From contig OY987245.1 in assembly GCA_963920765.1 (NCBI GenBank), positions 11,176,727-11,240,726 of the forward strand: a stretch of 64,000 bases of DNA. The letters run 5' to 3'. This document shows, in pieces, positions 5,105 to 55,409 of the stretch. The notes below the pieces were generated by a model, which saw only the letters and a list, made by a program, of their open reading frames with translations, was not told where the DNA came from and did not search any database. The number at the start of each line of letters is the position of its first letter. The stretch's first letter is position 1. This DNA comes from Ulota crispa. Its lineage: Eukaryota; Streptophyta; Bryopsida; Orthotrichales; Orthotrichaceae. The position numbers and the translations under genes were made by a program.

Positions 5105-5390
5105 TCACATGCTCAAGGAATGTCCTGTCTGCAAAGCTGCAAAAGCCCCTGAATAAGCTGCAACAGCTCCGGGATAATCTTCAACAGATAAAGATTTTGT
5201 GCACTTTTTGAAGAAGAATCTGTGCTGTTCATTGAACTCCACGACATATCCGACATTCAAACCTGCGACCAATTATATCGATTCAGGCGAATAGCATCTT
5301 CGAACTCCTGCAGATGGCTAAACATGTCCTGCTTGCTAATCCTTTTGAACTTTGAAGAGAAATGATGATGATTGCGGGTATCAGAGCTGT
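5105..5390 (-). pseudogene. Unidentified gene fragment in two reading frames
   Basis: On the minus strand 5390-5263 is open with a coding-like peptide (includes SKQDMFSHLQEFEDAIRLN) between a possible acceptor (TTCTGAAG) and a CAG/GTTTGA junction. Directly after it another frame is open from 5260 to the stop at 5105-5107 (includes LSVEDYPGAVAAYSGAF, faintly TPR-like). Two adjoining open frames offset from each other suggest either a frameshifted relic or an unrecognised splice. Other minus-strand pieces with coding character lie at 6160-6260 and 6935-7120. I could not name the family. Confidence 0.35.
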
Positions 5391-5609
5391 CTTCAGAAAG
5401 AAGTGATTTTCAAATATTCATTCCAAAATCCTATGAAATGGCTAAGTTGGGACTTCTGTGAAATGAAGAAATATTGCACTATTTTAACATGAGTCCAAGT
5501 TGTTATCAATTCTTGTAATTGTGGAGAGGAAGGTCTGGCATCTCTTAATGTGTGCGTTTGTTGGGCTTGGGGTACACTCAGTCCAGCGGTTTTGCAGTTG
5601 GGTAATAAT

Positions 5610-5836
5610 AACACGATATTCATTAAAATGGGAAAAACATGTGTACCATTTTGTATTTCACCTGAATCCAAAATAGACATCTTAATTGAATTAAGGAGGT
5701 CACCTGAAACCTACTTAATGAACTTTTGTTCAAAATTCCAGACTTTTTGTCCAAAAAAAGTGTATTTCTAGATGATATATATCTCATTTCATTGGAAAAC
5801 AGTCAACGGATTCCCAATTCAATGAATATGGCAGTC
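5610..5836. repeat. MITE, CAC(C/G)ATATT family, copy 4
   Basis: Begins CACGATATTCATTAAAATGG and ends with CCCAATTCAATGAATATGGC. A further half-end, TTTTCAATGAACATGACG, follows at about 5875-5900 and may be a second, overlapping relic. Confidence 0.55.
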
Positions 5837-6278
5837 TCAGAAGAAAAACACCAAAAGTCCCAATTTGTAAGATTTTTCCCTTTTCAATGAACATGACGTT
5901 TAATACTATTGGATAAATCTAGGGCAACAAATTGCTAACTGGCCCTTACGCGATTGTTACCTTTCTTTGCATGGAAAAATTAAAAAAACAACAATTTTTT
6001 CAGGAGATGAAAGTGTAAAATGCACAATTATAATTCAAAGGTCCTATGTACACAGTCATGGGTGAAATTTAATAAACTCACAAAAAATCCAGGCTCACAA
6101 CTCTCAAAAAGTCCAGCCTCACAACTCACGAAACACCGCTCACGGTATAGCATTCCAGTAGAAGAAGCTGGCTCGGACAACAGTGCTGACTGCTTGTACC
6201 AGCCCTCAAATGACGGTGCCTTTCGAACTTTTCATATGACTGGACAATTGAAGCATTGATAGGATCTACAATGTAGAG

Positions 6279-6528
6279 CCATATTAGGTAAATTGGGAAA
6301 AATGGAGGTACCATTTTGTACTTCACCTTAATTATACAAGGAATTGTAGGCATAGCTATAGCTTAAAGTTGAAAATTATTTGATTAAATTCTTGTAGGCA
6401 ATCACTAAGATTCCAATATTGTACAAGAAATTGCATGTTTTTTTGTTATAATATGCGGAATTTTACATGATGACAGAAATAGTGAAAGTTTCAAAATGTA
6501 CTCTTTTTCCCAATTTACTTAATATGGT
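6279..6528. repeat. MITE, CAC(C/G)ATATT family, copy 5
   Basis: Ends CCATATTAGGTAAATTGGG and CCCAATTTACTTAATATGG are good inverted repeats with a non-coding interior. The phrase GAGGTACCATTTTGTACTTC is shared with the copies at 5610 and 10456. Confidence 0.65.
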
Positions 6529-7625: not shown

Positions 7626-8778
7626 TTAGGAAGACATGGTTCCCAGGAGAGTGAAAGTGGGCACGAGATTGTCATCAATGGTGAGCGAGTATCTCTCTAA
7701 ATCATACATTTCATACATGGCATGAGCCAGCTTCATGGCCACCATGTGTGCCGGCTTGTGAATGGCCTTCACTGCGTCTTCCCGGCTCGCCCATATGCAC
7801 ATCGCCAGACACTCACGCCGCTCATTCAAAATCCCATACCAGTACTGCAACACAGCACACAAAATCCCACAACAACAACACTCAGAAAAACACAAATCCT
7901 TTACAAAACTGGCACTTTTCCAAGTGACTTTCCCGCAGATCTGACGACACTGGAAGTGTTTGCAAAGTCTCAAGTCTCTGTCAATTTAAGAGGAAAAAAC
8001 TGGGGGAAAGTAAACAGTGTTTACTTATTAAGTAAATTGGGAAAAAATGCAATTTTGGTACTCTTGGATTTTGTGTTTTTCACAGCAAACTCTTTTCAAT
8101 TTCCCTTTATGGACTTACATATAAGTTTCTTGTGTATTATACAAAACGCAGGGAAATGTGACAGAGGGAAAAATCATAGATGAAGAAATACACGGAAATG
8201 TTGAACCATTCATTCAAGGTGAATAGTAACACGTAGGGAAAACCACAAATTCGTGAATACTCACAAGAAAAATGTGAAAAATTCCTGAAACTAACAGAGG
8301 GAAATTCACAAAAATTTGTTGTGTTTTTGAAGAAGATTCACTAAATGCACTTTAATAAACACAAAATCCAAAAGTCCCAAAATTGCATTTTTTCCCTATT
8401 TACTTGCTATGGTGTTAGTTAGACCGGACGTAATAGTACCTTGAGCAATCCGCCGCTGAGGCGCGCTTCTTCTTGGGCATTGGCATCGGCGTTGTACAGA
8501 GACTCACTGTCGGCGGAGACCTTGCGAACGGAGCGGAACACCACCAAATAAAACTCCCTCCCGTACAACGCCGCCAACTCCTTTAACTCCCGGTCCCAGT
8601 CGAAAAGCTCCTCCACTGGTGTCGTTAGTGGATCCGTGTACGCATACTGATTTGCTGCAAGCTCCTTCACCGAGTACACTGGTGCCTCTATCACCTTTCC
8701 AGCTTTAAGAACGAATCTCTCTCCTCCTACCTCCTCCGGCATCTTGAGCACAGTACTCCCCCGAACTAATACACACAT
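7626..8778 (-). CDS. UPF0643 family protein, two exons
   Basis: Exon 1 is 8778-8440 and exon 2 is 7844-7626 (stop 7628-7626). The 595-base intron has AG/GTAC and TTGCAG/T junctions and splices in phase 0 to give 185 residues. Family hallmarks are FYLVVFRSVRK near residue 87, SGGLLK-YWYG spanning the splice, CIWASREDAVKAIHKP, and MYEMYDLERYSL near the C-terminus. This order is that of the UPF0643 family (fission yeast PB2B2.08), whose function is unknown to me. A start at the second ATG (8742) would remove 12 residues and has a slightly better context. The exons are clearly GC-richer than the flanks. The intron holds a MITE. I know this family mainly from fungi, so its origin in a plant is notable. 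Confidence 0.75.
8018..8414. repeat. MITE inside the UPF0643-gene intron
   Basis: The inner ends AAGTAAATTGGGAAAAAATG and TTTTTTCCCTATTTACTTGC are inverted, and the outer right end reads CTATGGTG. This CAC(C/G)ATATT-family element makes up about two thirds of the intron. Its interior shares sequence with 3145-3380. Confidence 0.65.
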
Positions 8779-11391: not shown

Positions 11392-12331
11392 TTAACCTTT
11401 AAAACCCCAAGTGTTCCTTTGAAAGACAAATCAATTTTGGGCATGTACCTATAGCTAAATTAGTTTGTGTGGTTTTTTGAAAATTTTATTGAAGGTGAGG
11501 AATTCAAAGACTTACACGAACATCTAATTTTTTCTTCATTCAGACATTTGGCAAAAAAATTATCAAGAAATTTTTGAAATTAGGGAAGAAGGGGCAATTT
11601 AGGCAAGGCCTCTCCTTTGTAAGTGGGTGTTTGACTCCAAAAAGGGTCAACCCTTATGGGCACAAGGTATGGACACTTAAGCAAAGGAGAGTGGAGAAGA
11701 GGAGGCCTATATCAGGGAACTCCCAACTCTCCATTCTTTTTGCCTTGTGTATGTAAAATTTAGTACTTTAACTTTTTAAGCGATTTGTGTATTTGATTTT
11801 TAGTTCTTTTTTTCCAAGTTGTAGTGAGCTAATATTCCTTGATTCATGTTGGCATTTGGATCCGTGCAATTCAAATTTCTAAATTTTACGTAAAACTTCC
11901 AAATTTGCCTAGTGTATTTGCAATTTCATGAGCTTCCAACATTAAAAGATTGTTTGAAGTATGTTATACACCTCTATTTCATTTGAAAATTCTCCCACAC
12001 ATACCAAACTTGGTCTTCTACATGGCACAACTAAACTTCAACTTTGTATAAATCAATTTATTACTGTAAGAGTTGTCAAAGGCTTCTGAAATTTCTAGGT
12101 ACGTAGGAAGGAAAACAAGCTATCTTCTTCACTTCAAATGTCATTATCTCACCCCTCTCCATTTGAAATGAGCTAAAAAAATTCCACAAGTACCTCCCAT
12201 AGTCTAGGGCAAAATTTTTTGGTTGGATTTTCAAAAAAAGTTTTTTTACACACCTTTCTACTCATTCCCTAGAAGTGGTAGTTTATAGTGACTTTTACAC
12301 ACAAAAAAAGGCTTGGGCCTTTAGGGGTTAA
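11392..12331 (+). mobile_element. TTAA-bounded piggyBac-like element, long type, copy 1
   Basis: Bounded by TTAA at 11392-11395 and 12328-12331. The right end reads GGGCCTTTAGGGG before TTAA. The left end has decayed but its following text (GGGCATGTACCTATAGCT) parallels GGGCAAGGTACCTATGGCTT in the copy at 56025. About 940 bases, no transposase frame. The open frame at 11574-11756 inside it has no recognisable domain. Confidence 0.6.
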
Positions 12332-15275: not shown

Positions 15276-15911
15276 TTAACACCTGAGCGCCCAGGTCATA
15301 TTCATCAAACCTATTCACACTCAATCCAACTAAGGTAGGCGCACCCATAAGCGTGGAAATAAGGGTTTTGGAGTAAGTAAAATAATTGACTAATTTTGAA
15401 AAAATTATTGTAAGTTAGGAAATGGAAATAAAAAATATTGGCATCAATTTCAAGGTTCCAACTGCAAGCATTTGTTCACAAAGATTTTTCAAAGTCCAAA
15501 ATCACTGAAATTGTAGGAACCATGTATAAGAGATGCTAATCACAAGGCTTGTTGGTCTTAAATAGTGAGATGGGTACTCAAAACCTCATGCTAGTCACCC
15601 ACAACCATCACTTCATCACCCATAACCATCACTTAGTCACCCACAACCATTTGTTTTTTATTAATTAGCCCTGCCACTGTCAGGTGACGAGCATGGGGAC
15701 ACAACACTTATGGATGCTGCTACCTTAATCTGTCATGACAAATGAGATTCATTAAATCTAACCGTATTGATTGGTAGGAGACATAGGCCCAAAAGTATAG
15801 AAAAAAAGGACACATGATTTATCTTTATTGATGAAAAGATTATAATAATCAAACATGGAACTTTTTCAACTGTGAGAGGCAATATGTGGGGTTGGGGGCG
15901 CTCAGGCTTAA
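15276..15911 (+). mobile_element. TTAA-bounded element with GAGCGCCCAGG ends, interrupted
   Basis: Left end TTAACACCTGAGCGCCCAGG, right end GGGGGCGCTCAGGCTTAA: inverted ends that begin with C-rich sequence and are bounded by TTAA. An AGGTAGG-family element occupies 15333-15725; without it the element is about 240 bases. Its right TTAA (15908-15911) doubles as the left TTAA of the next element. Confidence 0.7.
15333..15725 (+). repeat. AGGTAGG(C)GCACCCATAAGC element, copy 2 (nested)
   Basis: Starts AGGTAGGCGCACCCATAAGC and ends ACTTATGGATGCTGCTACCT, flanked by TA on both sides (15331-15332, 15726-15727). 393 bases. The interior has a short imperfect repeat of TCACCCA(C/T)AACCATCACTT. It is nearly identical in layout to 61529-61922. 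Confidence 0.85.
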
Positions 15912-16142
15912 CCCTGAACGGCTTGAAGGTCCTTTCTGGCTATATGATAGTATTTTCCATCTACGTATTGCAAGAGAGTGGGCTTATCAAAATTTGCACG
16001 CACCCACCGGCCACCATCATACAACATTTCAATCTATATAGTTGTAACCCTTGATTTGCAGCTGTTTTGAACTTCTGGTTGCTACAATACTTGAGAAGTT
16101 TGGTGCCGTAGCTCCAAAGCCCAAGCGTTGTTTAGGGGTTAG
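15908..16142 (+). mobile_element. TTAA-bounded short element
   Basis: Starts TTAACCCTGAACGGCTTGAA and ends GCCCAAGCGTTGTTTAGGGG then TTAG. Its body matches 23878-24109 along its length (CACCCAC..CACCATCATACAAC, TTTGGTGCCGTAGCTCCA), so the two are copies of one 230-235 base element. Confidence 0.65.
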
Positions 16143-23877: not shown

Positions 23878-24109
23878 TTAACCCTTGATTGGCCCAAAAG
23901 CCCTTTGCGGCCATATGTACGATTGTATGTACAAACGTATTTGAGTTGCTTTGAGGGCTTTCCAAATTTTTTTATGCACCCACCATCATACAACCCTTTA
24001 ATATGTACAATTGTAACACTTAATTTCCAGCTGATTCAAACTTCTGAATATTGATTGCGACCGTATTTGGTACCGTATCTCCAGAGCCCAAGGGCCCTTC
24101 AGGGGTTAA
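23878..24109 (+). mobile_element. TTAA-bounded short element
   Basis: TTAACCCTTGATTGGCCCAA at the left and GGGCCCTTCAGGGGTTAA at the right, 232 bases. The ends are inverted, begin CCC next to TTAA, and the body is a copy of 15908-16142. Confidence 0.7.
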
Positions 24110-24524: not shown

Positions 24525-25175
24525 TTAACACCTAAATGCCCAAGCGACCAGATTTGGGTCTCTACAAAACTTTGAAGATGAATAAAACCTTATCAAATCA
24601 TTATTTTTAGTGTTTTTTTTTTTTTTTTCAATATGAGTTATTTTTGAATTCTACTTTCAACATCAAAAATTTTATTTTGTAAATGAAAGTTGATGATTTT
24701 TCTACTCAAGATTTTGTACAAGGATGTCCACTGCAATCTTGAGTTTTCTAGTGTTGGAAGATCTTGAAAGTGAGCCTCAAATACACTAGAGCTTGGAGAA
24801 ATATCTGTATTAGAAATCCATTTCAAAAAATGTAGGAGTAGATTTTTAAAACTGTAAATTGATTAGAGTTAGACATGTAATGATCTTAAACCTCATATGT
24901 TTTTGGTGACCAACTTTTTAGATTTGACATATGAAATGAGGATTAGAAGACTTTAATTCACTTTTGTAATTTTAACACCCTCATGTTCAAACATTATAAT
25001 CTTTCAAACTATAAGTGATATTGTTGTGTTTTCTTTTTCCATGTAATTTCTAACATGTCTAGTTTAAATTTGTACGGTAACAATTGAAAAAAACTTGATG
25101 GAATTTATGAAAAGGTTGATTGATTGTTCAGTTTCATAAAAAATCCAAGAAGCTCAGATAGGGCTTGGGCATTTA
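24525..25175 (+). mobile_element. TTAA-bounded element, TTAACACCTAAATGCCCAAG end
   Basis: The left end TTAACACCTAAATGCCCAAG matches the start of 45353-46801, and both continue into a (C/A)GATTTGGG-like phrase and CTAAACTTTGA-like text. The right end GCTTGGGCATTTA is the inverted counterpart but is cut by the element at 25176. It abuts the preceding MITE with no gap. Confidence 0.55.
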
Positions 25176-36497: not shown

Positions 36498-37281
36498 TTA
36501 ACCCATGAGCGCCCAAAGTGAAAACAAGAAAATGAGGCCAGGAGTGACCATGCTCAAAAACATTGTACGCCCCAAGCTGGGAACTTAGATCGGAGAGGAT
36601 TCACCGTTGAAATAGCAAAAAGGGTGCTTGATGCACCCAACCAAAAATTTGCAAAACTTTTGACCTCACCATTTTGTAAATTACAATAGTCAAAGTATAG
36701 TTGACTATTTGGCAATTGGTTAATTTGGGGGGGGGGGGTTGTGGCTTTGGACACAAAAATTCATGCCTCGAGGAGGCTCTTTTTGATGAAATTTAGGCAA
36801 GGGGTGCGATGTACAAGTACCTCACTTGTTACCAAATTTGGCAATGTTCTAACATCCACAAGGTGCTTTTTGAGAGGCTTGAAGTTGCAAGGCTCACACA
36901 ACAATAGACAGGGATAGGTACAACCTTGACCTCCACAAGGGCACGGCTCTTGGCAATATAGTTACAAAACCCTTCTTTAGTCTGATGCATTTGTGCCAAA
37001 ACACCCCTTACGGTATGGAACCAACAATATTTGGTGGTCTCTATCCTCACACCCAAACCCTAAATAACACAAAATAACATTTGAACATATTATTGTCATA
37101 CTTAACTTGCACAATTCGTGCTTGTACAGTACAAGTAGCAAAATCTCATCCACTTTGTGGCAGTATTGTACCCTAAACACAAGTACAATTCCCGGCCAAG
37201 TACCCCTGACGTGGACAAGATTCTTTACAAAGTCTGATTTTGGGCGCCCCAATTTGAGGCGCTGGGGCGCTCAGGGGTTAA
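36498..37281 (+). mobile_element. TTAA-bounded element with GAGCGCCCA ends, 784 bases
   Basis: Starts TTAACCCATGAGCGCCCAAA and ends TGGGGCGCTCAGGGGTTAA: well-preserved inverted ends next to TTAA. No transposase frame. It includes a run of twelve G (about 36726-36737). Confidence 0.75.
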
Positions 37282-45350: not shown

Positions 45351-45623
45351 CCTTAACCCCTAAATGCCCAAGGCACCAAATTTGGGTGTTCACTAAACTT
45401 TGAGACCTTGTTGGAGGCAGAGATCTTCACTTCATTTTTTATTTTTTTGGAGAAGTTGGGGGCTGAAGTTAGCTTCAATGATCAATTTGAATTTCCTCCA
45501 TACCACATTCTAAGTGCTTTTGATGAAAGCTAAATTGCAAGCATGTCTCTTGTGCATCAAAAAATGTGATGAATCCTATCACTAAAGAGCTTATGACAAG
45601 TTGACACATTGGAAAGACATGTA

Positions 45624-45936
45624 AGGTATGTACACCCATAAGCACAACTGTCCCCATAATCATCACCTCTGATATCTTGGAAATCTGTGGAAGTGAATAG
45701 ATGTAATGACAAGGATGTACAACACATGAACATGAAATCTTAATAGTGGTTATGGATGCAATGGCAGTTTGCTCTTTATAAATTCACAACTTATTCTCAA
45801 AGTATCCAAATAATACATTTGAAAGTGCAAATTCATTATTTTTCTGTTCCTAATAAGATCCTATAATTTGCTAGCTGTTTATTGATACTCATCATGTTCA
45901 AAACCCTTGGTTTGAAGCTTATGGGTGTACATACCT
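45624..45936 (+). repeat. AGGTATG/ACACCCATAAGC element, subtype 2, copy 2 (nested)
   Basis: Starts AGGTATGTACACCCATAAGC, ends GCTTATGGGTGTACATACCT: nearly perfect inverted ends with TA on both sides (45622-45623, 45937-45938). 313 bases. Confidence 0.88.
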
Positions 45937-46462
45937 TAGCAAGTTGATCATAAAGTCAAGATTTCCCTTGGGCACTCCCTTGGGTAGTGAGGGCTCTTTT
46001 ATTGAAATTTCATCATCTAACATAAGTTGATTGTGTTTTTGCTCTAGTTCACTTGGAATGTTTTAGTTGTTCATTCACAATTGAAAATTCTTTCAATCAA
46101 ACTATTTTTAGGTCAACAATTGGAGCTAAACATTTCCTTTGTAGTAGGTGATAGCTCTTTGACAATTGCATTGTAAGCTTGTTTGTAAAATTGTGATCAT
46201 GAATTTGGAAAAAGAGTCATTAGTTTTGAAATAACAACAAGCACTAAATCATCATAATTGGTGGTTTCCCAATTTTGTACTCAAAAATTACCAATTTGCA
46301 TAACAAGTTTTGGTTAGCTCCAAAAAAACAAAAAGAATTGTACTCACCCACAATCAATTACAAGTATCTTAACATCTGCATGACTTTTTTAGAAGTTTTT
46401 TGTCAACTCCATTTGAAAGCCTTGAAGTTCAAGATCCTATGGTTACAATTTTTTGTCAAGAT

Positions 46463-46718
46463 TTAACCCTTGAGCGCCCAGAGTTATTTCACTAAAATCC
46501 ATACCCTTGTATACTTAATCCAATAAAAGTATTACCTAAGTAGAGTCAAATAGTTTGAATTTTTTTGAATGGTAGTAGACACGTGCCTGGAGGTACATGA
46601 AAAAGTACACGTCCTTTGACTTTACTATTAAGAAAAGGATAAGAGTCAAACATGCACATTTTTAAAAACTGAGCGACCGAGCGACCACATTTGGGCTCCT
46701 AGGGCGCTCAGGGGTTAA
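46463..46718 (+). mobile_element. TTAA-bounded short element with GAGCGCCCAG ends
   Basis: TTAACCCTTGAGCGCCCAGA at the left and CTAGGGCGCTCAGGGGTTAA at the right, 256 bases. This is the cleanest example of the family: inverted ends beginning CCC directly after TTAA. It is nested in 45353-46801. Confidence 0.85.
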
Positions 46719-46801
46719 CAATGATCTCATCACTGCAGTTCAAAAACTTCCAAAATGCCTTCTTGAACTGAGAAAAGTACCCTCAGGCATTGAGGGGTTA
46801 A

Positions 46802-54436: not shown

Positions 54437-55409
54437 TTAACGGCCCTGAGCGCCCAGGTCAGAATCAGTGCAATGCAGGTTTAAGGTAGGAGGCTCATAA
54501 ATGGAGCATCTAAGGGCTGAAACTGAATTTTGGGTAGGTGAAACTCTTTGAAATGATTTTCAGTAAATTCCTCAAAAGACAAGAAGAATCCGCATCTAAC
54601 CCAAGTTGTTTTGTATTTTTTGGAATTTTGTGGAATCAATTATGAATATTTGAAGTGGAAAGGCCATAGGGCTCTAAAATGGAGCACCTCCTCAAATATA
54701 CATGAGTTGTACATTGTTGAAGGGTTATGAAAAACAAGATGTACAAAATGAGTACATTTGAGGAGGTCTTCCGAATTTGAGCCTCCTACCTTATAGGACT
54801 TTGAGGCAATCCAATCCCACTGGTTTGTGCAAAAATAGAATCCATGGATATGAACCTTTGAAAGGGGTGGTAACCTTGAGCGCGGAGACCATTTGAAAAT
54901 TTGGAGAACTTTGATTGTCCTATTTCCATTATTATAATGGTCAAAGGCAAGTTGAAAACTAGCTATTTGCCCAAATTTATGGACGTGTAACACAATTCTC
55001 ACCTTATTTTGTCCCAATCAAGTGAATTTACATTATGAAATTTTGTACCATGGTTTGAGAATAGGACATTTGCCTACCCTCCAATTTTCAAAATTTTTTG
55101 GCAAGATTTAGGGTGCTAAAGCGGACCACAAAAGCACACAACTCACGTGCATTTGTCAATGGTTCTAGTGTAGTCTTAGTATTTTTTGTTGCACTAAACT
55201 GCTCCAAAAGCCACTTTTCCCCATCCACAAGTCATCTTTGACACAGCATGAGACCTTCATAACTACATACCCCACTCACTTTAGTAGTACATGCACTAAT
55301 TGTACCATTGGTACATTTGGACTAGAAGTACCACCCAATCTGGCTGATTGGAACCCTAAATTAAATCGAGAAAGGCCATATTTCATGCGCTGGGGCACTT
55401 AGGTGTTAA
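54437..55409 (+). mobile_element. TTAA-bounded element with GAGCGCCCAGG end, interrupted
   Basis: Left TTAACGGCCCTGAGCGCCCA, right GCTGGGGCACTTAGGTGTTAA, with a nested AGGTAGGAGGCTCA element at 54484-54791. The remaining body is about 660 bases, similar in scale to 36498-37281. Confidence 0.6.
54484..54791 (+). repeat. AGGTAGGAGGCTCA element, copy 1 (nested)
   Basis: Starts AGGTAGGAGGCTCATAAATG, ends GAGCCTCCTACCT, TA on each side. The body contains GGGCTGAAACTGAATTTTGG and AAAAGACAAGAAGAAT, shared with copies at 55416 and 59732. Confidence 0.85.

Follow-up and report, generated by a model that had tools for sequence, protein, structure and literature searches.

According to the accessible part of an animal survey, insects, fungi and plants have all yielded transposons of the piggyBac superfamily, and the same source gives CACTA, CCCTC, CCCTT and CCCAT as published 5' motifs (PMC10813416). 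The initial annotation of the locus described here knew of no well-described piggyBac MITEs in land plants, a view that holds insofar as the available parts of land-plant surveys and reviews offer bare mentions only. A 2024 review, in its accessible text, counts PiggyBac, with reference to Wicker et al., among the class II superfamilies of plants (PMC10794571), the available portion of a 2025 piggyBac paper describes the superfamily as occasional in plant genomes and names red algae (PMC12732532), and a table in the accessible part of the C-fern genome paper has a PiggyBac row with the entries 1,230 and 122,417, which we read as copies and bases (PMC6890710). The accessible sections of a 2022 review of land-plant transposons distinguish six TIR superfamilies, and the word 'piggybac' was not found in them (PMC9033089); nor was it found in the available sections of a 2025 MITE survey that covers 207 plant genomes, with four bryophytes among them, and sorts these elements into five superfamilies plus a special group (PMC12550479). 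In a paper on the moss Niphotrichum the sole related word is 'piggybacking', and an account of piggyBac in mosses was not found in the open-access literature, among the matches listed. Thus, the superfamily is known, and its moss host lineage and its scale there appear to be without description in the open-access literature searched.

Here we analyse a short TTAA-bounded unit in the window, that is, the whole stretch of 64,000 nucleotides under study (C4:11176727-11240726), together with the genome of 274.8 Mb in 157 contigs to which it belongs. With high confidence we interpret this focal unit as a non-autonomous transposon (MITE) of the piggyBac superfamily residing in a moss.

Results

The focal element and related units in the window

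An inverted-repeat finder places the arms of the focal element at 46463-46479 and 46702-46718, 17 nt each and 94% complementary, with TTAA at each outer edge, so that the limits originally proposed for the element are exact. Both termini carry CCC (5'-CCC...GGG-3'), as expected of piggyBac termini, which begin with CCY. No gene lies within the element. Its full-length relatives L054 and L058 (L and C numbers denote loci and contigs) are each 84% identical to it over 258-259 aligned columns and 91% identical to each other.

Eight related TTAA-bounded units had been proposed for the window, and they fared unequally. The focal element and the 784-bp element possess 17-nt arms, and a recognisable TTAACCC is found at both ends of the element hosting the focal MITE and of the 232-bp element. 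The case is weaker for the unit at 15276-15911, whose right end is shortened, and for the 973-bp element, as neither has arms at its ends in the output of the repeat finder; it is likewise weaker for the degenerate element at 15908-16142 with its altered right end, which has one TTAA in common with 15276-15911. The unit at 24525-25175 is confirmed at its left end only, the first 51 bp being 84% identical to the 45353 element, and has no TTAA at the right boundary. The units therefore stand as a group and not as a single family, as they belong to several sub-families of differing length and internal sequence.

Table 1. Coordinates of TTAA/CCC elements and their parts in the window
Feature	Positions	Strand	Details
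Focal MITE, in all probability of piggyBac type	46463..46718	+	256 bp including both TTAA; 17-nt inverted ends
TTAA target-site copy, left	46463..46466	.	single exact TTAA at 13/20 empty sites
Left terminal inverted repeat CCCTTGAGCGCCC	46467..46479	+	inverted-repeat finder; TTAACCCNTGAGCGCCC 2,255 times in genome
Right terminal inverted repeat, CCCCTGAGCGCCC on - strand	46702..46714	-	inverted-repeat finder
TTAA target-site copy, right	46715..46718	.	single exact TTAA at 13/20 empty sites
Older TTAA/CCC element hosting the focal MITE	45353..46801	+	ends TTAACCCCTAAATGCCC / TTAACCCCTCAATGCCT; ~1.19 kb without the focal MITE
784-bp element with focal-type 17-nt ends	36498..37281	+	arms 36498-36514 / 37265-37281, 94%
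~250-bp MITE broken by ~390-bp insert	15276..15911	+	L057 matches positions 636-451 (88%) and 58-1 (80%)
Degenerate TTAA/CCC element	15908..16142	+	right end TTAG; 72% to 23878-24109 over 134 bp
232-bp TTAA/CCC element of a different sub-family	23878..24109	+	TTAACCCTTGATTGGCCC / TTAACCCCTGAAGGGCCC
Partial TTAA/CCC element	24525..25175	+	clear left end only, TTAACACCTAAATGCCC; right boundary without TTAA
973-bp element	54437..55409	+	TTAACGGCCCTGAGCGCCCAG / TTAACACCTAAGTGCCCC; two extra bases in left end

Comparison of 30 elements delineates a sub-family of about 250 bp around the focal element (84-91% identity, full-length), one of about 780 bp (L001, L004, L008, L050 and L060; 81-86%, in the case of L001 over part of its length) and a pair of about 910 bp (L041 517-1429 and L043 1229-2137; 87.5%). 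Internal sequences differ much, with a mean pairwise identity of 54% among 13 short units, and the divergence of the compared copies suggests that they are not very recent. In both L041 and L043 the ~910-bp element, of the form TTAACCCTT.., lies upstream of a piggyBac transposase. The ~390-bp insert that breaks the ~250-bp MITE relative to L057 (window ~15334-15725) has GGTAG...CTACC ends with TAA on each side and resembles a PIF/Harbinger-type MITE.

Frequency and arrangement of the ends

In the window, TGAGCGCCCAG occurs four times with at most one mismatch, compared to 0.36 expected occurrences, and a count of four was reached in none of 100 shuffles. The 17-base end, with up to four mismatches allowed, is found 19 times versus 0-6 times (mean 2.5) in 20 Markov simulations, and two scrambled versions of it gave 2 and 1 window matches. 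The genome-wide search with the ends, as proposed at the outset, yielded 2,255 copies of TTAACCCNTGAGCGCCC (1,145 forward, 1,110 reverse; about one per 122 kb) and none of the reversed control; TTAACCCNTGAGCGCCCAG occurs 669 times, its reversed control again not at all. Across the genome, TTAA directly precedes 669 of the 750 exact copies of CCCNTGAGCGCCCAG (89%). Neighbouring ends less than 1.5 kb apart, counted among the first 100 listed of the 2,255 ends, these 100 all being on C1, face each other in 11 pairs, face away in none and point in the same direction in two. The window also contains ends of type TTAACCCCTAAAGGCCC / AAAGGACC at 12331 (-), 12389 (+) and 56955 (-), and the 17 bases of the one at 12331 are identical to the right end of transposase region L048.

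The shorter word GGGGTTAA is present 53,617 times in the genome compared to 9,944 times for the reversed word, and nine of its ten occurrences in the window can be interpreted, by our reading of the flanks, as TTAA/CCC element edges. If this excess consists mostly of ends, the genome would harbour tens of thousands of element ends.

Elements of this kind can adjoin with one common TTAA, as is observed for 15276-15911 and 15908-16142 and among L049-L060. GGGG, the apparent edge of another such element, directly precedes 149 of the 2,255 focal-type ends; 41-76 such cases are expected when 0.8-1.47 million TTAA sites are assumed from the DNA retrieved, corresponding to a two- to fourfold enrichment. 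Among 12 of these cases, L049-L060, a clear upstream TTAACCC end matching the GGGG edge was identified in four (L053, L055, L057 and L059), seven have weaker matches only and L050 has none. The excess could also stem from common insertion hotspots or from the copying of already stacked pairs.

Empty sites of the focal insertion

The focal MITE interrupts a second, older element with TTAA/CCC ends (45353-46801). Its flanks were joined at a single TTAA and compared with the genome, 40 of 1,749 candidates being scored; the joined-flank query also carried two further insertions (36498-37281 and L004). Of the 42 resulting rows, 36 cross the focal junction at 80-85% identity and six derive from the three source sites themselves, each split in two. 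Most junction-crossing rows end near query position 198, which is the right edge of the 45353-46801 element. In the best 20 of the 36 rows the junction reads as one exact TTAA in 13, is substituted in seven (TTGA twice, TTCA, TCAA, TTAC, GTAA and GTGG) and is doubled in none. The single TTAA of the empty sites thus indicates that the target had one TTAA before the insertion, which contributed the element together with a second TTAA, and the TTAA duplication originally proposed is borne out for the focal insertion. Since TTAA is palindromic, one site would show the same pattern if TA, within an invariant T..A context, had been duplicated. The joined-flank genome search found no empty site for 36498-37281 and L004, nor for L008_1501, L042 and L039, and none of 16 joined flanks searched locally gave a convincing one.

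piggyBac transposases in the genome

A profile search of the genome (116 of 528 candidates scored) gave 120 matches to PF13843 over the cut-off, a few of which are two pieces of one gene, with a best E value of 1.3e-73. We take PF13843 (DDE_Tnp_1_7; Pfam description 'Transposase IS4') to be the piggyBac model, which is supported by the protein of L043, a 436-aa open frame with a TTG start that matches 6x67 (Transposase; 3.6e-20), presumably the Trichoplusia ni enzyme, and piggyBat 9c0f (1.4e-16). In 14 named control genomes PF13843 had no matches, a weak control as this set is apparently prokaryotic. Most of the listed matches contain stops. With the L043 frame as query, Asp is found at three aligned positions in 27, 22 and 25 of the 30 loci L009-L038, the commonest change being Asn, and we assume that these positions are the catalytic Asp of the DDD triad. 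Judged from these alignments, the triad characteristic of piggyBac is mostly kept in copies that mostly contain stops. The initial annotation had proposed a search for such a DDD transposase, and the genome evidently contains many candidates. Long, foldback-like inverted repeats are present in two transposase regions, namely L039 (53-734; 338 nt at 98%, spacer 6) and L043 (150-1034; 388 nt at 97%, spacer 109).

Ends around the transposase genes

The transposase with the same ends that had been sought was encountered once, in L042 (C1:6984500-6993400), where TTAACCCCTGAGCGCCCAG at 661 and TTAACCCCTGAGCACCCAG inverted at 8364 form a 23-nt inverted repeat of 91% identity that spans 7.7 kb (7,704 bp) around a PF13843 domain (5360-6469). 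This transposase is decayed, with seven in-frame stops in the domain, and no intact transposase gene was seen between exact focal-type ends, L042 being the sole case for the focal ends. The locus was found by comparing 93 listed C1 ends with 15 C1 transposase places, for which we estimate that about 0.34 ends would lie within 5 kb of a transposase by chance; the decisive part is therefore the second, matched and inward-facing end of L042.

A scan of 30 transposase loci with 1.5-kb flanks had seemed contrary to this, since it revealed the exact focal end in none and the end with 3-4 mismatches in five of the 30. In these 30 best loci TTAACCC occurs within the flanks in four (L009, L014, L018 and L030), always downstream and facing inward. 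Related ends turned up further out, in wider regions. When all TTAA sites of ten such regions were searched, the best pair around the domain was an inward TTAACCC pair in six, i.e. L039 (5,027 bp), L041 (5,102), L042 (7,704), L044 (7,495), L045 (6,621) and L047 (5,230), so that five regions besides L042 have related pairs. No good TTAACCC pair was found in L040, L043, L046 and L048; in L040, L043 and L048 this type is present at the right end alone. An end had guided the choice of four of the ten regions (L039-L041 by a right end seen earlier, L042 by a nearby end); of the six chosen without end knowledge, for long or little-broken frames or a high score, three are paired (L044, L045 and L047). 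Ends combined across regions agree at 11-14 of 14 in 12 of 90 combinations, eight of which pair TTAACCC with TTAACCC. With cross-region matching that good, end matching by itself is a weak argument, which is instead carried by L042 and the inward orientation.

The host

The host, initially taken for a plant, is judged to be a moss by its light-harvesting proteins, including an Lhcb9-type gene on C1. PF00504 (light-harvesting) has 56 matches in the genome and, among the 14 control genomes, matched only Synechococcus. An LHCII protein from C1 scores 444.1 bits against 8htu_U and 443.9 bits against 7xqp_a compared to 430.3 bits for the next single-LHC chain, 1vcr_A; the multi-LHC fusion 9vfj is higher in summed score. 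A 250-aa protein from C1, the Lhcb9-type one, reaches 449.8 bits with 8htu_9 and 424.6 bits with 7xqp_9 versus 347.4 bits for the best fusion chain (9vfj_2) and 208.7 bits for the next ordinary LHC chain. Both 8htu and 7xqp are presumably Physcomitrium patens photosystem I with Lhcb9, a protein that to our knowledge is found in mosses only. As L042, L044 and the Lhcb9-type gene are located on one contig of 41.4 Mb (C1), contamination is unlikely. Eight listed LHC gene matches, on both strands, are grouped within 0.4 Mb at C4:21391382-21771811.

Discussion

The assignment to piggyBac, at first drawn from TTAA and CCC termini, is now supported by the single-TTAA empty sites, by the DDD transposases and by the L042 transposase between focal-type ends. 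That this moss has piggyBac-type MITEs together with coding relatives is hence well supported. In the mechanism we propose, the short CCC...GGG ends would be bound by a DDD transposase of piggyBac type produced from another locus, which would excise the MITE at TTAA and reinsert it at a different TTAA, so that the inserted MITE would be flanked by TTAA on both sides. A transposase of the L042 type presumably moved the focal copy, and by analogy with known piggyBac elements its excision would be seamless.

Sola3 uses TTAA as well, and the ends could in principle belong to this or another TTAA- or TA-targeting group, with the piggyBac genes inside or near them by chance. Such an origin would fit the fact that TA targeting within TTAA is indistinguishable at a single site, that L042 is the sole region with focal-type ends and that four of the ten regions are without a good pair. 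Nevertheless, focal-type ends are so sparse, at the genome-wide spacing given above, that the matched inward pair bracketing the L042 transposase is hard to reconcile with it, as are the inward TTAACCC pairs in half of the regions picked without end knowledge and the full TTAA at 89% of the exact CCCNTGAGCGCCCAG copies; we consider this origin improbable. Kolobok elements also make TTAA duplications, according to the accessible part of the source (PMC9587614), but their ends are of the 5'-RR...YY-3' type in contrast to the 5'-CCC...GGG-3' found here, and the transposase between such ends is a PF13843 piggyBac enzyme. Kolobok was thus rejected on its termini, and we regard it as a still more remote candidate than Sola3. 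That the units are not mobile at all, and represent a chance or satellite-like short inverted motif, might be suspected from the 54% mean identity of the short units, yet the three full-length sub-families and the empty sites of the focal insertion speak against it so clearly that the probability is negligible.

Beyond the piggyBac reading of the focal element, we put forward a broader scenario that we hold only tentatively and think somewhat less likely to be right than wrong. Here, piggyBac would be a major, long-resident and diversified component of this moss genome, with tens of thousands of ends, and its elements would favour the TTAA edges of other piggyBac elements, thereby building stacks with common TTAA that could move as larger units.

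By these findings, land plants would be added to the animals, fungi and protists from which the superfamily is mainly known, and its occurrence in a moss raises the question of inheritance versus horizontal transfer. The findings further suggest that annotation pipelines working with five plant MITE classes will misname such repeats. A plant-native piggyBac system may, moreover, allow comparison with its animal counterpart employed in genome engineering.

In animals, for example corals, piggyBac-related MITEs reportedly occur as short non-coding units with TTAA; the elements described here differ from these in their plant host and in forming several sub-families of ~250, 780 and 910 bp. With the five plant MITE superfamilies they have in common short length, high copy number, inverted ends and a flanking duplication, but we know of none among the five that is defined by TTAA together with CCC ends. 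Kolobok resembles the focal MITE in its TTAA duplication and differs in termini of the opposite type and in its transposase. A Tc1/mariner origin, with a TA duplication and a transposase of its own, appears less likely in view of the full TTAA at 669/750 ends and the piggyBac transposase between ends seen here. The closest likeness is to the piggyBac superfamily (6x67, 9c0f), with PF13843 and its three Asp, a TTAA target and short CCC ends. The coding elements, at 5.0-7.7 kb, also fall inside the 1.23-9.51 kb given for piggyBac of small animal genomes in the accessible part of PMC10813416. They are longer than the intact beetle piggyBac elements of 2.1-3.5 kb in that of PMC12732532, and are further set apart from known piggyBac by their moss host and an end motif of their own, CCCNTGAGCGCCC.
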